IMG/VR virus record: IMGVR_UViG_3300025687_000169
Coordinates: 1 to 33,880 of that record
Length of the DNA stretch: 33,880 nucleotides
Strand: one strand, 5' to 3'
DNA from: a virus
Position 1 is the stretch's first letter. Each line of letters begins with the position of its first letter. Under the pieces are notes generated by a model. That model was not told the DNA's origin, did no database searches, and saw only the letters and a list, made by a program, of their open reading frames with translations. The translations under genes and the position numbers were made by a program. Positions 24,501-30,824 of the stretch are shown here, piece after piece.

Positions 24501-24591
24501 TGCAATAGATAATTCTATTTCATCAGATGGAACATTTAACACTACTTTAAAAGCCAGATTTGAAACTGGTGGTAGGAGACCAAGACCATAA
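21550..24591 (+). CDS. Large baseplate protein, probable hub (gp27/VgrG-like ending)
   Basis: A 1013-residue protein, the largest in the window. The N-terminus is charged (EGEEEEAVENRLDSTL), followed by an Ala/Gly hydrophobic stretch at about residues 31-62. Residues 200-420 are beta-rich with several aromatic strands, including RIFKVYREKGE and YEIQIEVGYNGG. The C-terminal 110 residues (FDVTIEMVGNNLFRVGQYVY then YHLITAIDNSISSDGTFNTT) resemble the closing beta-domain of gp27/VgrG-type hub proteins. A second small hydrophobic segment, AGTAVAIGSALGADVGG, is at about 681-697. Both hydrophobic patches are encoded by GC-rich DNA within an AT-rich gene. Its stop overlaps the next ATG (TAATGG). No lysozyme domain is seen. 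The hub assignment is moderate. Confidence 0.5.
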   Translation: MADPKETLQNRNKKIEGEEEEAVENRLDSTLGALGAVTDAVAAPLALAAEAGGIAIDVLTGGTPITEAVDQFQQQSIQYIEEIVGEQVAEALDSLREFVDERIESLSNIANDVSEYFATASIQSDTKVINLAHQCFLAYNVDQFSLFHKNLLANDVRGFAPDFYRGLDGRDFIDTNGYRAKEGGVTRIYLTSDDNTSNFVNKVGIKKHGEKFLNLKTPEIAQLIPRLRIFKVYREKGEATERKVELEFAAGTSADLLRQPQKTEVFPSSTPEFVRGMDVGVESFNWRFIGGDNFTATREIEAELKLSAQTMQAIFFERTSNNVFPKESEKNKFRYLDLVLMPDCRRAETDRSINWTSYSPECYEIQIEVGYNGGATSFGTFDEDAAQFREAIEAQTETLRLTTYEHNFEFKDDGSVGLTIKMKGFLESFAKDKSMNILLPYAGMASGRVKVSLKGLNKDKIIPKYGSDRFKKAYSDYPASDIWPLELVDDLLQALKNVEEKEQDELIKSSIEIIEKQISKLFVATKQALVSHIFNRLETGGAIYTYVLGDQELKDFTSMQTEDGGYPQHTDLSKIENGGIGTYAGGPGSDRFGAFVEEDIGQLTSSLNTYDAITQEDLNALIKGSLDSAFADSRINNLVGKNKLISYFFLGDLIAVILDSITGDDTFEYTLYNSAWDEGLLAGTAVAIGSALGADVGGVQINYEGFRNSTVSQVLKKLRVILGGIPIKIKGDPDTKVVNIAHIPVSVQSFNQFMIDNVLSKDINNYPFFDFIDDLIKSLVIDFLGTRCFGGLIENKLKPQVGVYNSNKEFDIDGSKNGYFAPSPSNQSNYCVLDLTKFNSKNPLFDTNKIQQADLMYFVFGATSLDFGQLQGSYKQDLENGILYLAHGINSGLVKSIKFEKVNQEFVAQARLASEGGTILSQLSNKFDVTIEMVGNNLFRVGQYVYLDASSLGAGPSWYDRGDGADRQRSWSNIMGLGGYHLITAIDNSISSDGTFNTTLKARFETGGRRPRP

Positions 24592-25910
24592 TGGCAGCTA
24601 TTAATAACTTACCAGCAAGAGAAAGCATGGCTAAACGGGCGGACTATTCCGTCAATGCTATTCCCTTACTACCAGAAACAAACGAACCCACACTGGAAAC
24701 TAGACAACTAAAAGACTTTCTCTTAAACGAGAAGATCTTCATTGGTAGAGTAGACGGATCCTTTAATCCTGTCTTTGTAAATCAGAAAGAACTTGATAAC
24801 TTTGGACCAGACTCAAATACCAAAGTAGGACTCAGAGTTGTTACCGAAGCATACAAAGACATGAAAAGAAAGTATGATAGAGATTTTGCACAAGGGTACA
24901 TTAATAGAAATGCACCTGCTCTTAATGAGCTAAGTGTTAAGAAAGCATATATTAATCCTTTTGATAGTTATAAGAACAATCTAAGATCTAGAACAGAAGA
25001 TTTTCTAAATTATGTTAAGAACAATAGACTGATCAATAACATAGAAGACTTTGATTCCTTTGTCAATCCTTTTCTTCAGTATGTCGAAGACACTGGGAAA
25101 CAAAGGCCAATAACAAGATCTATGTATTTCCTAACCAGAAGATACTCTCCTCTTTCAACTGGTTTAGCATTTGAGGTAGATAATGCTCCTTACAGCGAAG
25201 ACCAGTACAAGATCGATGCTTATTACAGACAAAAGAACTTCCAGTATTTTAAGAACCTTGCATCTCGTTATGGTTTTGTGATCGACAAGAACATCCCCTG
25301 GCGTCTTGTGGCAGATCTAAACTCTCCGCAAATGACGCCCTACATTGAGAAAGCGTTTGGTTTCCCTGGTGGATCAAACTATGTTCTTGCCGTGGCCTAC
25401 ACGCAGACCTATGGAGACGACATCCCATCTATCATAAACCTGATGGTTCAGTTTTACAACAGAATAGCACAACATAGAGCAAGAACTGTAATCAAAGAGT
25501 CTGGCCCAACAGTTGGTGCTGGTGGAAGAACAGCGTTTAACATATGTGCCAAGCAGGGAAAGACAATTAGAAGGCGCCAAGTTGACCCAAGAAGAATACC
25601 AAATGCCTACCCAAATGAATTTTGGCTTGACAAGTATGTCAGGATCCGTAATATTGAAACAGGGCTGGACTACAGCGATGCTCAAGTTGAACAGATTTCA
25701 AAGAATGCAGGAAATATTGTCAAAAAACTTGACAGGGCCTCGGCGATGCGTTACGTTATCTCTAAGTTCGATAATGTGCAGCACTTCGAAGGCTCGCTGT
25801 TCTATGATACAACTCGATTGAACTTTGCTCGTCAAGGACTAGGCGACGAAGCCGATGTTGTTGAAACAGTTAAAAGAAGTGTTCAAGCATCAAACTTTGT
25901 GATATACTGA
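24591..25910 (+). CDS. Unknown baseplate or tail protein
   Basis: A 439-residue protein whose ATG shares its A with the stop of the hub gene, indicating coupled translation. It is helical, rich in Asn, Tyr, Arg and Lys, with no low complexity. Notable stretches are RQLKDFLLNEKIFIGRVDGS (about residues 39-58), RSMYFLTRRYSPLSTGLAFE (about 180-199), YRQKNFQYFKNLASRYGFVI and PYIEKAFGFPGGSNYVLAVA. It has two Cys residues at most, and no membrane segment. It closes the structural block, right before the polymerase. A baseplate role follows from context only. Two sigma-70-like promoters for the replication block lie inside its 3' end. Confidence 0.75.
   Translation: MAAINNLPARESMAKRADYSVNAIPLLPETNEPTLETRQLKDFLLNEKIFIGRVDGSFNPVFVNQKELDNFGPDSNTKVGLRVVTEAYKDMKRKYDRDFAQGYINRNAPALNELSVKKAYINPFDSYKNNLRSRTEDFLNYVKNNRLINNIEDFDSFVNPFLQYVEDTGKQRPITRSMYFLTRRYSPLSTGLAFEVDNAPYSEDQYKIDAYYRQKNFQYFKNLASRYGFVIDKNIPWRLVADLNSPQMTPYIEKAFGFPGGSNYVLAVAYTQTYGDDIPSIINLMVQFYNRIAQHRARTVIKESGPTVGAGGRTAFNICAKQGKTIRRRQVDPRRIPNAYPNEFWLDKYVRIRNIETGLDYSDAQVEQISKNAGNIVKKLDRASAMRYVISKFDNVQHFEGSLFYDTTRLNFARQGLGDEADVVETVKRSVQASNFVIY
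25627..25654 (+). promoter_or_regulatory. Sigma-70-like promoter upstream of the polymerase, inside a structural gene
   Basis: TTGACA, 16 bases, TAATAT. A full-consensus -35 with a five-of-six -10. It lies in the 3' end of the preceding CDS and would drive the replication block. Confidence 0.4.
25729..25757 (+). promoter_or_regulatory. Sigma-70-like promoter, second copy upstream of the polymerase
   Basis: TTGACA, 17 bases, TACGTT. It lies 170 bases before the polymerase ATG, within the end of the preceding CDS. Confidence 0.35.
25900..25908 (+). promoter_or_regulatory. Extended -10 promoter just before the polymerase gene
   Basis: TGATATACT is a TGn extended -10 with TATACT, 20 bases before the polymerase ATG. 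Its -35 region (TGTTCA at 17 bases) is weak, which is usual for extended -10 promoters. Confidence 0.45.
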
Positions 25911-25928: not shown

Positions 25929-27116
25929 ATGTATTTTCAGGCGCTCGACGACAAAGGCGAGTGTGTTGGGGTTTATAAGGACGGAGAACTGTATTTTGAA
26001 GAACTACCAAACAACTTGCAGAAGACATGGAAATATGCTGAGTTTCTCAGAGACCTTGACGTGGAGTATGCTAGTCTATACGCTCCCAATCAGTCTCTTG
26101 CTGACGTTTGCCCACCTCACCTCCTAGACAAGTGGCTAGAGGTTGAAGCAAAACTAAAAGCATTTTACCGTTCTTTCGTTCTTGGTAAGGTCGATCTGAA
26201 CGAAAACTGCTTTTTTGACCTCGTTCCAACCACTTTTCTCAAGGATTATTGTAAAATGAAAGACCAAATAACCCAGCACGTCTTCGAAAACTACGAAAGA
26301 CCTGCTAACTATGACTTTTTAGCTGATCTTACGAAGGTTTTGACGAAGATCCGCCGCCAAAAGGTCAACATCGACCAGTCTGCGCTCAACAGGCTGCGCA
26401 TTACAGACAAGGGCAAGCACCTAAACGCTCGTTTGGGATCCGTGTCTCCTTATTGTCATTATCGCATCAACGGAACCATCACAGGTCGCTTGTCCAGCGA
26501 GTTTGAAACCTTTCCGATTATGACACTAAACAAGGACTTTCGCCACATCATCCAACCAACTAACGACTGGTTCGTTGAACTGGACTTCAACGCAGCCGAA
26601 CTACGAACGCTAATGGCCCTGGGAGGCTCTACACCACCCCTAGAAGACATTCACGACTGGAATGCGCGTAATCTATTCAGCGAGGGCACGACACGCGGAG
26701 AAGCGAAGGTAGGGCTGCTTGCGTGGCTCTATGATGAAAACAAAACAAATGAAAGGTTTGCGTCTATTTATGATCGCGATGCCGTCCGTTCCAAGTTTTG
26801 GAAGAACGGCGAGGTAAAGACGATCTTTGACAGAACTATTCCTGCCGATCACTCTCACGCTCTAAACTACATCGTCCAAAGCACCACCGCCGATCTTGTT
26901 CTTCGCCAGGTCATCAAGGTAAACGAGGCGATGGAGGGCTTGGAAAGTTTTATTGCTTTCATCATCCACGACAGCATCGTCCTTGACATGAAGGAAGGCG
27001 AGAGACATAAGATCCCAGAGTTGTTAAAGGTTTTCAGCGACACTGATCTCGGCAAGTTCCTTGTCAATGTCCGCGCTGGCTTTAACTTTGGCGATATGAA
27101 AGAGATTAACCTGTGA
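25929..27116 (+). CDS. polA-like: Minimal family A DNA polymerase, no exonuclease domain
   Basis: A 395-residue polymerase with the palm and fingers motifs of family A. TGRLSS is at 185-190. Motif A, LDFNAAELR (Asp219, Glu224), replaces the usual DYSQIELR. Motif B is Arg256-x3-Lys260-x7-Tyr268. NYIVQSTTADL (313-323) matches the usual N-IQG-AAD stretch. Motif C is IIHDSIVLD, where the common HDE reads HDS (Asp348 retained). The O-helix Gly after Tyr is Asp. The N-terminal 130 residues show no 3'-5' exonuclease motifs, so proofreading, if any, must come from another protein. It opens the replication block with a GGAGGGG ribosome site. T4 itself uses a family B polymerase. Its TGA overlaps the ATG of the GC-rich ORF. 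Confidence 0.85.
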   Translation: MYFQALDDKGECVGVYKDGELYFEELPNNLQKTWKYAEFLRDLDVEYASLYAPNQSLADVCPPHLLDKWLEVEAKLKAFYRSFVLGKVDLNENCFFDLVPTTFLKDYCKMKDQITQHVFENYERPANYDFLADLTKVLTKIRRQKVNIDQSALNRLRITDKGKHLNARLGSVSPYCHYRINGTITGRLSSEFETFPIMTLNKDFRHIIQPTNDWFVELDFNAAELRTLMALGGSTPPLEDIHDWNARNLFSEGTTRGEAKVGLLAWLYDENKTNERFASIYDRDAVRSKFWKNGEVKTIFDRTIPADHSHALNYIVQSTTADLVLRQVIKVNEAMEGLESFIAFIIHDSIVLDMKEGERHKIPELLKVFSDTDLGKFLVNVRAGFNFGDMKEINL

Positions 27117-27478
27117 TGAATGAACTTGCACAACGAGCCGTCGCCTCGCCGCACTGGCGATGGATGCCGGGGATGCTCGTGCGCTACCCCACCGGATACA
27201 GCGAGCGCATCGAGGACGACACCGACGCAGCGGCACGGTTGGAGGACGACGGGTTCCCCGACCTCACCGACCCCGCCACGCTGGGATGCCTGCTCGCGCT
27301 GGTGCGGGAGGCGTGGGAGCCGCATCGGGGCTCTGACTACATCGCAAGCACGATGCATACCGGCTCCGGCTGGGGTGTCGGTGCTCGATACGGGTCTGAG
27401 GGGCTGGCGGCTATTGTGCTGCCCACCTACGACACCGAAGCCGCCGCCCTCGTGGCCGCGTTGGAGGCTGCGCCATGA
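27116..27478 (+). CDS. GC-rich accessory ORF of unknown function
   Basis: A 120-residue protein (GTG 27113 would add one residue). The DNA is roughly two-thirds G+C, far above its neighbours, with Gly, Ala and Asp codons ending in C or G. Its ATG overlaps the polymerase TGA and its TGA overlaps the ATG of the next gene, so it sits seamlessly between two host-phage genes. The sequence starts NELAQRAVASPHWRWMPGML, has a conserved-looking PDLTDPATLGCLLALVREAW (about residues 48-67), and ends with a small Ala-rich helix. From memory, proteins of this pattern occur in many unrelated phages without known function. This frame was chosen over two overlapping ORFs because of the start/stop overlaps and the ordered composition. 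Confidence 0.75.
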   Translation: MNELAQRAVASPHWRWMPGMLVRYPTGYSERIEDDTDAAARLEDDGFPDLTDPATLGCLLALVREAWEPHRGSDYIASTMHTGSGWGVGARYGSEGLAAIVLPTYDTEAAALVAALEAAP

Positions 27479-28308
27479 ACATCATTGGTCTTGGAAAGGC
27501 TGGCTGTGCTATTGCGGAGTGTTTTTCAAAATACCCGCAGTACAAAACCTTCTACATTGACCTTGACAGGCGAGGCGAGAACAGTTATACTATTGAAAAG
27601 CAACAAGGACCAGAGCAATACGAACAAAATGCACCTGACCTCAAAAAATTCCTTGACACAGCAGAGGGAGCGTGCTACATTGTAATAGGTGGATCGGGGG
27701 ACATTTCTGGTATGTCTCTCCGAGTAATGGAAGGAATAAAGGACAAGAAAGGAATAAGCGTCGTCTACATTCAACCTGACCGGTCGCTCCTAAGCGAGCG
27801 TAAGAAGAGGCATGAGCGCGTAACATTTAATGTGCTCCAGCAATACGCAAGGTCAGGCGCGATAGAACGCATTTACCTTATTTCAAACAACGCAGTTGAG
27901 GCCGTTATTGGCGAAGTTCCGATCATCGGCTATTATGACAAGTTGAACGAGATCATCGTTTCAACTCTCCACATGATAAATGTGTGCAAGAACCAAGAAC
28001 CAGTCATGGGCGGGCTTGAAGAGCCAGGAGAAACCCGCCGAATCTCCACAGTTGGGATTTATGACTTTGAAAAGGATGAAGAAAAGTTATTCTTTTCACT
28101 TGACACACCACGGGAAGCATGCTACATTTATTGTGTTGGGGGCAAGAGGTTGCGAGAGGATGGCTCTTTACACAAGACCATCGTTTCACAAATGACAGGA
28201 AAGATCACTGATGAAACAAAAACAGTTTCCTATGGTGTTTTTCCTACCAACTATGAGACGGACTACGGATACCTTTTGATCCACAGTCCAATGATACAGA
28301 ACCAGTAG
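27475..28308 (+). CDS. Divergent FtsZ/tubulin-like protein
   Basis: A 277-residue protein with the overall plan of the tubulin superfamily. Nucleotide loop T1 is IGLGKAGCAIAECF (residues 4-17), like the FtsZ IGVGGGG-NAV segment, followed by the strand YIDLD (27-31, FtsZ INTD). The glycine-rich loop T4 is IGGSGDISG (71-79, FtsZ GGGTGTG). Then come VVYIQPDRSLLSERKKRHER (97-116, FtsZ VVTKPF-FEG-R) and LISNN (135-139, FtsZ IPN). A C-terminal domain of alternating strands follows (ACYIYCVGG, TVSYGVFPTN, YGYLLIHS). The T7 catalytic NxDxxD motif is not visible, so GTP binding is plausible but hydrolysis on polymerisation is doubtful. It overlaps the GC-rich ORF by 4 bases and precedes gp32. It could be a phage cytoskeleton or an inhibitor of host FtsZ. 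Confidence 0.7.
   Translation: MNIIGLGKAGCAIAECFSKYPQYKTFYIDLDRRGENSYTIEKQQGPEQYEQNAPDLKKFLDTAEGACYIVIGGSGDISGMSLRVMEGIKDKKGISVVYIQPDRSLLSERKKRHERVTFNVLQQYARSGAIERIYLISNNAVEAVIGEVPIIGYYDKLNEIIVSTLHMINVCKNQEPVMGGLEEPGETRRISTVGIYDFEKDEEKLFFSLDTPREACYIYCVGGKRLREDGSLHKTIVSQMTGKITDETKTVSYGVFPTNYETDYGYLLIHSPMIQNQ
27563..27591 (+). promoter_or_regulatory. Near-consensus sigma-70 promoter inside the tubulin-like gene
   Basis: TTGACA, 17 bases, TATACT. The -35 is perfect and the -10 four or five of six. It lies about 90 bases into the CDS, so it would produce a truncated tubulin-like message and gp32. Confidence 0.45.
27653..27681 (+). promoter_or_regulatory. Sigma-70 promoter with TGCTACATT extended -10
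   Basis: TTGACA, 17 bases, TACATT, preceded by TGC. It shares GCTACATT with sites at 28100 and 32280. Confidence 0.45.
28100..28128 (+). promoter_or_regulatory. Sigma-70 promoter for gp32, TGCTACATT extended -10
   Basis: TTGACA, 17 bases, TACATT with TGC before it, 230 bases upstream of the gp32 ATG. gp32 is needed in quantity, which would fit a dedicated promoter. Confidence 0.5.
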
Positions 28309-28357: not shown

Positions 28358-29110
28358 ATGGGTATCAATCTTGACAAGATGCGTGCAAAGCTTGACGCAC
28401 TTCACAACAAGGGCGGTAAGAAGGAGTCTCCCTTCTGGCGTCCCGAGGATGGTGAACAGACCATTCGTATCGTTCCAACCCCTGATGGCGATCCATTTAA
28501 GGAGTTTTGGTTCCACTACAACCTGGGTAAGAACCCTGGTTTCCTCAGCCCGAAGCGTAACTTTGGCATTGACGACCCACTAAACGACTTTGTTCGTCAG
28601 CTTTTCCAGGCAGGTGACGAGGCCAGCATCAAGCAGGCTAAGGATCTGATGGCAAAGCAGCGTTTCTTTGCTCCCGTTCTCGTCCGAGGCGAGGAGGAGA
28701 AGGGTGTTCGCATCTGGGGTTTTGGAAAGCGTGCTTACGAGCAGCTTCTCCAGCTTGTTCTCAACCCCGAGTATGGCGACATTACCGATGTTGAGTCAGG
28801 AACTGACCTCGTTATTACCTATGGAAAGCCGCCTGGAGCATCTTTCCCACAGACCGGCATTACTCCACGCCGTCGTTCAAGCCCTCTCTGCGATGATGCA
28901 GTTGGCGGCCCTGATCGATGCGCAGAGTTGCTCGACAGCATCCCTGATTTCGATGAGCTTTTCCCACGGAAGACTCCACAGGAAATTCAGGTTATGCTTG
29001 ACGAGTGGCTTGCAGGCGAGGACTCTGCTGGAGAGGATGTTGTGAAGTACGACAGTAACAACACCACTTCAAGCGTTGACAGCGCTTTTAATGACTTGAT
29101 GAGTGCATAA
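28358..29110 (+). CDS. 32: Single-stranded DNA-binding protein, T4 gp32-like
   Basis: A 250-residue protein (T4 gp32 has 301). The OB-fold core contains SPFWRPEDGEQTIRIVPTPD (about residues 24-43), EFWFHYNLG and FFAPVLVR with RIWGFGKRAYEQLLQL, the usual gp32 pattern of marine T4-like phages. The C-terminus is acidic and ends DSAFNDLMSA, the partner-binding tail. The stretch SPKRNFGIDDPLNDFV (64-79) stands where many gp32 proteins have CP-x-CPxC zinc ligands; none of the cysteines is present, so the zinc site seems lost. gp32 coats single-stranded DNA for the polymerase, UvsX and helicase, all encoded nearby. AAGGAG lies 9 bases before the ATG. Confidence 0.88.
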   Translation: MGINLDKMRAKLDALHNKGGKKESPFWRPEDGEQTIRIVPTPDGDPFKEFWFHYNLGKNPGFLSPKRNFGIDDPLNDFVRQLFQAGDEASIKQAKDLMAKQRFFAPVLVRGEEEKGVRIWGFGKRAYEQLLQLVLNPEYGDITDVESGTDLVITYGKPPGASFPQTGITPRRRSSPLCDDAVGGPDRCAELLDSIPDFDELFPRKTPQEIQVMLDEWLAGEDSAGEDVVKYDSNNTTSSVDSAFNDLMSA

Positions 29111-29126
29111 AAGGAGAAATTCATTC

Positions 29127-29360
29127 ATGTTCAGTAATCTATTTGGTCGCTTATGTGTTTCCGTGATGGGAGCACTACTACTTCTTGGCTGCGGGTCAGA
29201 CAAGGAGGACAGTGGCGACACCGGTTCAGAGACAACCACCACGGAGCCAACGGGGACTACGACTCCTCCAACAACTCCCCCCACCACGGTTCCCACGGGT
29301 TCCACTGGTGAGACAGGTGACACTGGCAGCGCGGACACTGGCGTTTCGACAGGCACCTGA
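29127..29360 (+). CDS. Small Thr/Gly-rich lipoprotein
   Basis: A 77-residue protein with a hydrophobic signal (residues 9-20) and lipobox LLGC, giving lipidated Cys22. Glycine at +2 suggests export past the inner membrane. The mature part is a flexible, Thr/Pro/Ser/Asp/Gly-rich tail (SGDTGSETTTTEPTG, then TPPTTPPTT). The start is ATG 29127 because AAGGAG lies 10 bases before it; an in-frame GTG at 29103 overlaps gp32 without a ribosome site. Such tails are common on lipoproteins of Myxococcota-like bacteria. Superinfection exclusion or envelope modification during infection is a typical role for phage lipoproteins; here it is inference. The DNA is more GC-rich than gp32. A terminator follows. 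Confidence 0.75.
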   Translation: MFSNLFGRLCVSVMGALLLLGCGSDKEDSGDTGSETTTTEPTGTTTPPTTPPTTVPTGSTGETGDTGSADTGVSTGT

Positions 29361-29705: not shown

Positions 29706-30824
29706 ATGCCTAAGAGAACAAAGGCAAAGGCAGGAAAGCTTTCCATCGCTGAGATGCGAAAGCTTGTCAACAAGAAGGCAGGTGCAACAGTTGCCCACGA
29801 TCTGTCAGGGACAAACCCGACAGAGGTTACCGAGTGGATCCCAACTGGTTCCCGCTGGCTAAACTCCATCATTTGTCGTGGAAAGTACGCCGGTATTCCA
29901 GTAGGAAAGATCTCGGAGATCGCTGGTCTTTCTGCCTCTGGTAAGTCTTACATGGCTGCCCAGATCGCAGGCAACGCCCAGAAGATGGGCATTGATGTCG
30001 TCTATTTTGATTCAGAGTCAGCTATTGACCCTGACTTTCTGACAAACGCCGGCTGTGATGTAGATGATCTACTTTACATTCAAGCATCGTCAGTTGAGTT
30101 TGTTTTGGAAACTATTGAAGAACTCTTAGCAGGAAACGAGAACCGAATGCTGTTTATTTGGGACTCCCTTGCTATGACGCCTTCTACCACCGACATTGAA
30201 GGCGATTTTAACCCGCTTTCAAGCATGGCTGTCAAGCCACGCATCTTGTCAAAGGGTTTCGCAAAGCTAACCGTTCCTATTGCGAATTCGCAGTCCACGC
30301 TTCTTATTCTAAACCAGTTGAAGACGAACATTACCTCAAACATTGCGGAAGCAAGGTTGGAGCCATATTTCACCCCAGGCGGCAAGGCAGCCATTTATGC
30401 CTATTCTCTTCGCATCTGGCTGACTGCTCGTAAGGGCAAGTCAAGCTACATTTATGATGACAAGGGTTTCCGGGTTGGCACAGAGGTAAAGGCAAAGATT
30501 AAGAAGTCCCGTTTCGGTTCAGATGGTCGAGAATGCACGTTCAAGATCCTTTGGGCTGGGGATGATGTTAAAATCCAAGACGAAGAGTCGTGGCTTGAAG
30601 CTATTAAAAGTTCCAAGCACCTCACGAATGCAGGCGCTTGGTGGACTTTGCATTACGAAGATGGAAAAACCGAAAAGTTCCAGTCAGCTAACTGGTTGGA
30701 AAAGTTGCAGAACGACACATTCCGAGAAAGAGTTTTCAAGCTTATGGAAGAAGAAGTCATTCTCCGCTTTGACAACAAGGCAGTCGACGCCAAGGAGTTT
30801 TACGATATAGACGGCGAAGAATGA
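29706..30824 (+). CDS. uvsX: UvsX-type RecA-like recombinase
   Basis: A 372-residue protein (T4 UvsX has 391). Walker A is GLSASGKS (74-81), the T4-like variant of GPESSGKT. The catalytic Glu lies in FDSESAID (Glu104), and Walker B is MLFIWDS (148-154). QLKTNI (204-209) marks the DNA-binding loop region. It catalyses strand exchange for recombination-dependent replication and repair with gp32. ATG 29706 follows the 91-residue gene after 5 bases with no strong Shine-Dalgarno, so it may depend on coupling. It sits downstream of gp32 and upstream of the deaminase, exonuclease and helicase genes. Confidence 0.92.
   Translation: MPKRTKAKAGKLSIAEMRKLVNKKAGATVAHDLSGTNPTEVTEWIPTGSRWLNSIICRGKYAGIPVGKISEIAGLSASGKSYMAAQIAGNAQKMGIDVVYFDSESAIDPDFLTNAGCDVDDLLYIQASSVEFVLETIEELLAGNENRMLFIWDSLAMTPSTTDIEGDFNPLSSMAVKPRILSKGFAKLTVPIANSQSTLLILNQLKTNITSNIAEARLEPYFTPGGKAAIYAYSLRIWLTARKGKSSYIYDDKGFRVGTEVKAKIKKSRFGSDGRECTFKILWAGDDVKIQDEESWLEAIKSSKHLTNAGAWWTLHYEDGKTEKFQSANWLEKLQNDTFRERVFKLMEEEVILRFDNKAVDAKEFYDIDGEE

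Follow-up and report, generated by a model that had tools for sequence, protein, structure and literature searches.

A tubulin fold occurs in a common uncultured clade of T4-like phages with its catalytic interface stripped, under purifying selection, and fixed beside the genes for a family A DNA polymerase (polA) and a gp32-like single-strand DNA-binding protein; this suggests that virus DNA replication has a cytoskeleton-like component not recognised so far. The gene that represents it here lies on the + strand at 27475..28308 of the window (the whole 33,880-nucleotide stretch of DNA that was analysed) and encodes a protein of 277 amino acids. Its ATG start and the stop codon of the ORF before it share bases (ATGA at 27475-27478), a usual sign of translational coupling. 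The initial annotation had read this ORF as an FtsZ/tubulin relative from a handful of motifs, and all of them are there: IGLGKAGCAIAECF at residues 4-17, GGSGDISG at residues 72-79, VVYIQPDRSLLSERKKRHER at residues 96-115 and LISNN at residues 135-139 of the translation.

Fold and family

The gene is real and under selection: relatives of 36-100% identity are found in hundreds of IMG/VR contigs, and between close ones most differences are synonymous (dN 0.018-0.065, dS 0.34-0.67; dN/dS ~0.04-0.12). A chance ORF is excluded by these two facts. One scan alone finds at least 589 IMG/VR stretches that carry the family, with further ones coming from other searches, and 240 full-length copies reduce to 183 unique proteins in the alignment, which are down to 36% identical to the 277-residue protein and down to 28% identical among themselves. 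Annotation by sequence alone thus overlooks a family of phage genes that counts its members in hundreds. Searched with the 277-residue protein, Pfam (best E 0.18), PHROGs and, by sequence, the PDB give no significant match, and all profile matches of the family in the PDB lie above E 0.8. A phmmer match to designed SAKe repeat proteins in the PDB was set aside as a sum of weak repeats, with no single stretch better than i-Evalue 3. No relative was found by tblastn in 50,697 records of cultured phages, or by scanning 85,000 prokaryote genomes (GTDB) twice for sequence patterns, the latter being a weak negative because such scans rely on exact short peptides; a profile built from all 36 members is too diverse for a genome scan. 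When the two most divergent sequences were used to look for basal members whose catalytic loops are intact, just one new contig came up. The open-access literature yielded no paper describing a tubulin-fold family between polA and gp32, nor one joining Far-T4 phages with tubulin or FtsZ; the Far-T4 phage paper itself mentions neither (PMC4360716).

What sequence searches miss, structure prediction recovers with confidence. The AlphaFold2 (AF2) model made with 138 relatives (mean pLDDT 96.2, pTM 0.93) places a nucleotide-binding domain, a central helix H7 and a C-terminal domain in tubulin order, and in a Foldseek search of the PDB its top 50 matches are FtsZ and TubZ only (E 7e-14 to 5e-12; TM 0.66-0.74 normalised by query; 10-16% identity), with alignments that span both domains over 303-356 columns. 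A model made with 10 relatives, at a pLDDT of 66, already had FtsZ and TubZ only among its top 50. Among the eight best matches in a library of viral models are a PhuZ, two proteins annotated as tubulins and, from an uncultured phage, one annotated as FtsZ (TM 0.82). At the level of profiles, hhalign against nine FtsZ sequences aligns residues 2-166 collinearly through T1, T4, T6 and H7 (E 7e-4; an unrelated profile taken from these phages reaches E 0.16); against a single FtsZ sequence the match is too weak. By its predicted fold, then, the protein is a member of the FtsZ/tubulin superfamily, as the initial annotation had it. That it is some other Rossmann-type nucleotide-binding protein merely resembling FtsZ is extremely improbable: GxGxxG loops are common in Rossmann folds, and sub-threshold Pfam matches among 36 relatives are to TrkA_N in 10 (best E 3e-4) alongside Tubulin in 5, but no different Rossmann-type fold emerges from the structure search, where both domains align with FtsZ and TubZ only in the top 50, and the named viral models and the collinear profile match point the same way.

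Nucleotide-binding loops and lost catalytic elements

Conservation was counted over the 183 aligned unique proteins, with secondary structure taken from the AF2 model (DSSP); all the elements that follow are encoded on the + strand. The T1 nucleotide loop GLGKAGCAIA (residues 5-14, 27487..27516), collinear with the T1 of FtsZ by hhalign, has G5, G7 and G10 in every protein. On the guanine side, the T6 asparagine N138 (27886..27888) is kept in 178 proteins, and N158, near the start of helix H7 (residues 153-172, 27931..27990), in 181; D29 at T2 is present in 173, and position 154 is Y, F, W or H in 169. The elements that handle the rest of the nucleotide have fared otherwise. Not one of the 183 proteins has the FtsZ-type GAG loop at T3. 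The T4 region, GGSGDISG (residues 72-79, 27688..27711), is degenerate: the tubulin signature [SAG]GGTG[SAT]G occurs in 0/183, the threonine position is variable, and the glycine next to it is replaced by I or V. At the expected site of T7 and helix H8 (residues 173-189, 27991..28041) both are absent; NxDxxD, also when read as NxDxxE, is found in 0/183, and the model has no helix there. The first reading of this sequence had the nucleotide loops kept and the T7 motif lost. The loss of T7 holds throughout the family; the retention of the loops holds for T1 and, nearly always, for the T6/H7 guanine contacts, and fails for T3 and the T4 signature.

The span from residue 153 to residue 189 is exactly 37 residues long in 183/183 proteins, and thus leaves no room for H8. 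In the model this shortening removes helix H8 and probably H9 as well, at whose place there is a short strand (residues 202-205). The modelled chain ends six residues past its last strand, without the C-terminal helix H11 and tail. Many relatives (L060, L064, L084, L115 and others) differ from the 277-residue protein in carrying a short acidic tail (for example LLDDQDIS or RLDKEINL), which is preceded by an invariant glutamine (Q275, 183/183); these tails could mediate protein interactions in the way that the tails of single-strand DNA-binding proteins do.

The active site of FtsZ is composed of T2, T3, T5 and T7 residues of two subunits, and mutations in T2 or T7 impair assembly (PMC8936486). 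With the guanine side kept and the gamma-phosphate and catalytic side gone, canonical GTP hydrolysis by the 277-residue protein would, on the evidence of its sequence, be very unlikely. A further set of positions is near-invariant. R126-S127, at the C-terminal end of helix H5 (27850..27855; model helix 108-127), are invariant (183/183) and Q122 is nearly so; H166 (181), M167 (182) and N169 (177) lie near the end of H7, and R189 (179/183) follows. By fold topology, all of these lie towards the end of the domain opposite the nucleotide. Conservation at both domain ends would suit head-to-tail self-association; since T7, H8 and T3, which belong to the normal longitudinal interface, are missing, assembly of this kind would need a new interface.

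Replication block, inheritance and carrier phages

The initial annotation had placed the gene among replication genes of a T4-like phage, and both parts of that statement are borne out. Upstream lies polA (25929..27116, + strand, 395 aa; Pfam DNA_pol_A 9.9e-14), downstream the gp32-like single-strand DNA-binding protein (28358..29110, + strand, 250 aa; Pfam gp32 1.7e-10, PHROG 2.8e-22), and beyond it a UvsX/RecA recombinase (29706..30824, + strand, 372 aa; PHROG 97 UvsX-like 1.4e-52). A survey of the neighbourhoods of the 183 unique copies finds polA upstream on the same strand in 131/131 testable loci and gp32 downstream on the same strand in 149/150; these loci come from one clade in one collection and are phylogenetically related, so that the counts do not stand for independent events. 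UvsX is found within five genes downstream in 113 loci. The polA-tubulin-gp32 linkage spans proteins down to 28% identical and extends, in unchanged order, to L023, the most divergent of all. The block also contains, upstream, a 439-aa and a roughly 1000-aa protein and, downstream along with uvsX, an exonuclease and a helicase. The tubulin-fold gene is single-copy in 15/15 large contigs; the distances between its proteins are correlated with polA distances (r 0.90) and gp32 distances (r 0.88), and it evolves at the polA rate, which argues that it is inherited with the replication block. Searches for the T4 clamp and UvsY in 8 large contigs, made without a positive control, detected neither.

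Some neighbours deserve mention on their own account. Between polA and the tubulin-fold gene of the window, overlapping each by four bases, is a GC-rich ORF of 121 aa (27113-27478; ~66% GC, the surroundings having 44-50%). Neither Pfam nor PHROGs give a match to it, and most relatives lack it, so that it looks like a recent insertion into this slot. In 62 loci (L084, L231, L197, L161, L134, L154 and 56 others) the slot is occupied instead by a protein of ~105 aa that, by eye, looks like a MazG-type pyrophosphohydrolase (KLVRDRIPEII, then EEAADI.EIL). The 439-aa protein (24591-25910), which is of no recognised family, lies directly upstream of the 395-aa polymerase in 143 loci. RM378 reportedly has a separate 3'-5' exonuclease of a split polymerase, and by analogy the 439-aa protein could be such an exonuclease. 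A small ORF at 29103-29360 has the look of a lipoprotein (LLLGCGSDKEDSGDTG, then Thr/Pro/Gly-rich repeats); Asp-Thr-Gly-rich lipoproteins of this sort might give a clue to the host. No tRNA was found in the 33,880 nucleotides.

The carrier phages have T4-like head, sheath, tube and prohead protease genes (major head protein 1.2e-74), and contigs with the tubulin-fold gene reach 165-194 kb. The nearest named capsids are those of LR756508 (an uncultured phage), Microcystis phage Mel-JY01 and the Flavobacterium immuto phages, with RM378, the cultured member of the Far-T4 clade (PMC4360716), among the top ten. On the strength of these best capsid matches the carriers would be phages of Far-T4 type, and the tubulin-fold gene a core gene of their large uncultured clade. 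The immuto phages share the gene order (polA, gp32, recA, exonuclease, helicase) but lack the tubulin, which implies either a gain of the gene within the lineage studied or a loss outside it. In immuto-like phages and LR756508 other genes fill the slot, and tubulin and FtsZ profiles match nothing in 84 such loci. The 428-aa slot gene of Mel-JY01 (PP395634, L260:6598-7884), annotated as hypothetical and lying directly upstream of gp32, was considered as a larger tubulin and rejected: its product is S-AdoMet-lyase-like (Pfam S-AdoMet_lyase E 4.4e-10), an enzyme type known from phage anti-restriction. The photosystem gene psbA is absent from 20 contigs, and cyanobacterial hosts are therefore unsupported.

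Possible functions and relation to known cytoskeletal proteins

The explanation that we favour, with a confidence somewhat short of even, is that this divergent, catalytically stripped tubulin-fold protein belongs to the phage replication apparatus as a structural part and acts as a static oligomer or filament. A guanine nucleotide, if bound at all, would serve as a structural cofactor; the protein would self-associate through its two conserved ends; and the resulting static assembly would hold or organise polymerase, gp32 and DNA at the replication site. The confident fold, the loss of T3, the T4 signature and T7, the fixed linkage, the single copy, the inheritance with polA and gp32 and the near-invariant residues at both ends all lend support; on the other side, conserved gene order in phages may reflect co-regulation, so that physical contact with polymerase or gp32 is not implied by it. 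The more ambitious version, in which a widespread T4-like clade has built a hydrolysis-free tubulin into its core replication machinery as a static scaffold joining polymerase and gp32, is offered tentatively and is rather unlikely as it stands. A static tubulin scaffold of this description was found nowhere in the open-access literature. It is an unlikely alternative that the protein works in the replisome without polymerising, as an exapted monomer or dimer that loads or tethers gp32, polymerase or helicase and substitutes for T4 mediator or processivity factors. The position of the gene between polA and gp32, the lost T7/H8 interface and the undetected clamp and UvsY would all be in keeping with this, but near-invariant residues at both domain ends are what assembly would lead one to expect, and we know of no precedent for a tubulin-fold loader.

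The initial annotation had raised the thought that the protein caps or co-polymerises with host FtsZ, which would block the Z-ring during infection. Phage inhibitors of FtsZ exist, and the fold is that of FtsZ. Capping of one FtsZ face is also a known mode of inhibition, with a precedent in MciZ (PMC8936486). Such a role is nevertheless improbable: typical host-takeover genes are variable, whereas this one is single-copy, fixed in the replication block and inherited with it, and its product is only 10-16% identical to FtsZ, with one interface remodelled by the absence of its T7/H8 part. It is the fixed polA-tubulin-gp32 context, the single copy and the vertical inheritance that favour a replication component over an FtsZ poison; as far as gene context can tell, the other suggestion of the initial annotation, that of stable filaments near the replication site, would fit better than FtsZ capping, and so would an accessory factor of the replisome. 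Decidedly improbable, finally, is a phage tubulin that is active and dynamic by virtue of a newly evolved active site, in which R126, H166, N169 and R189 contributed by one subunit stand in for the T7 aspartates at the next, and GTP turnover positions DNA as in PhuZ or TubZ. These four residues are invariant or nearly so and lie topologically opposite the nucleotide, and the guanine contacts are kept; but the T3 loop and the T4 threonine and glycine positions are lost too, which makes gamma-phosphate binding doubtful. To return to the favoured structural role: if the protein assembles, the requirements of a tubulin for scaffolding are separable from those for motion; otherwise, a tubulin fold has been converted into a replisome subunit.

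The known phage tubulins, PhuZ and TubZ, are GTP-driven and occur in jumbo phages or plasmid-like prophages. TubZ proteins (~400 aa), the partition tubulins of plasmids and the c-st prophage, hydrolyse GTP actively and serve in segregation; the structural matches to them are strong (E 2e-13), but the protein described here has no T7 motif and adjoins polA and gp32. PhuZ and the phiKZ TubZ of nucleus-forming jumbo phages are likewise phage-encoded tubulin folds, with T7 catalysis, a C-terminal H11 and an acidic knuckle in about 315-345 aa (PMC3678025), as against 277 aa without T7 catalysis or C-terminal H11 and knuckle in T4-like phages of 165-194 kb. The branch is thus distinct from PhuZ and TubZ, in agreement with the first reading. 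With bacterial and archaeal FtsZ it shares the two-domain fold, the T1 loop, the T6 and H7 asparagines and the order of elements; it differs in lacking the T3 GAG loop, GGGTGTG, NxDxxD, H8 and probably H9, and in being a phage gene inside a replication block. Since the defining T4 signature and T7 catalysis are missing, the protein is not an FtsZ, a PhuZ or a TubZ, and by its sequence features (T3, T4 signature, T7/H8) the family falls outside the PF00091 GTPases. Strongly diverged branches visible by remote homology only have been seen before among cellular FtsZ-like proteins: FtsZl2 keeps T1, T4, T6, T7 and H7, and FtsZl1 is without a recognisable T6-H7 (PMC2875224), whereas here T6-H7 is kept and T3, the T4 signature, T7 and H8 are lost, in a viral protein of which no cellular copy was found.

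The nearest analogue in working is AlpC, the actin-like protein of prophage CGP3, which is needed for efficient phage DNA replication (PMC4446434): it is a phage cytoskeletal protein, but it has an actin fold, hydrolyses nucleotide actively and works as filaments together with an adaptor that binds DNA. Of all structural matches, the closest is A0A6J5RW92, annotated "FtsZ Cell division GTPase" in an uncultured Caudovirales phage (BFVD; TM 0.82 by query), which is closer to the 277-residue protein than any solved FtsZ; it is longer (452 aa) and, in a comparison by structure match and annotation alone, 16% identical. Phage FtsZ-like proteins may form a wider group.
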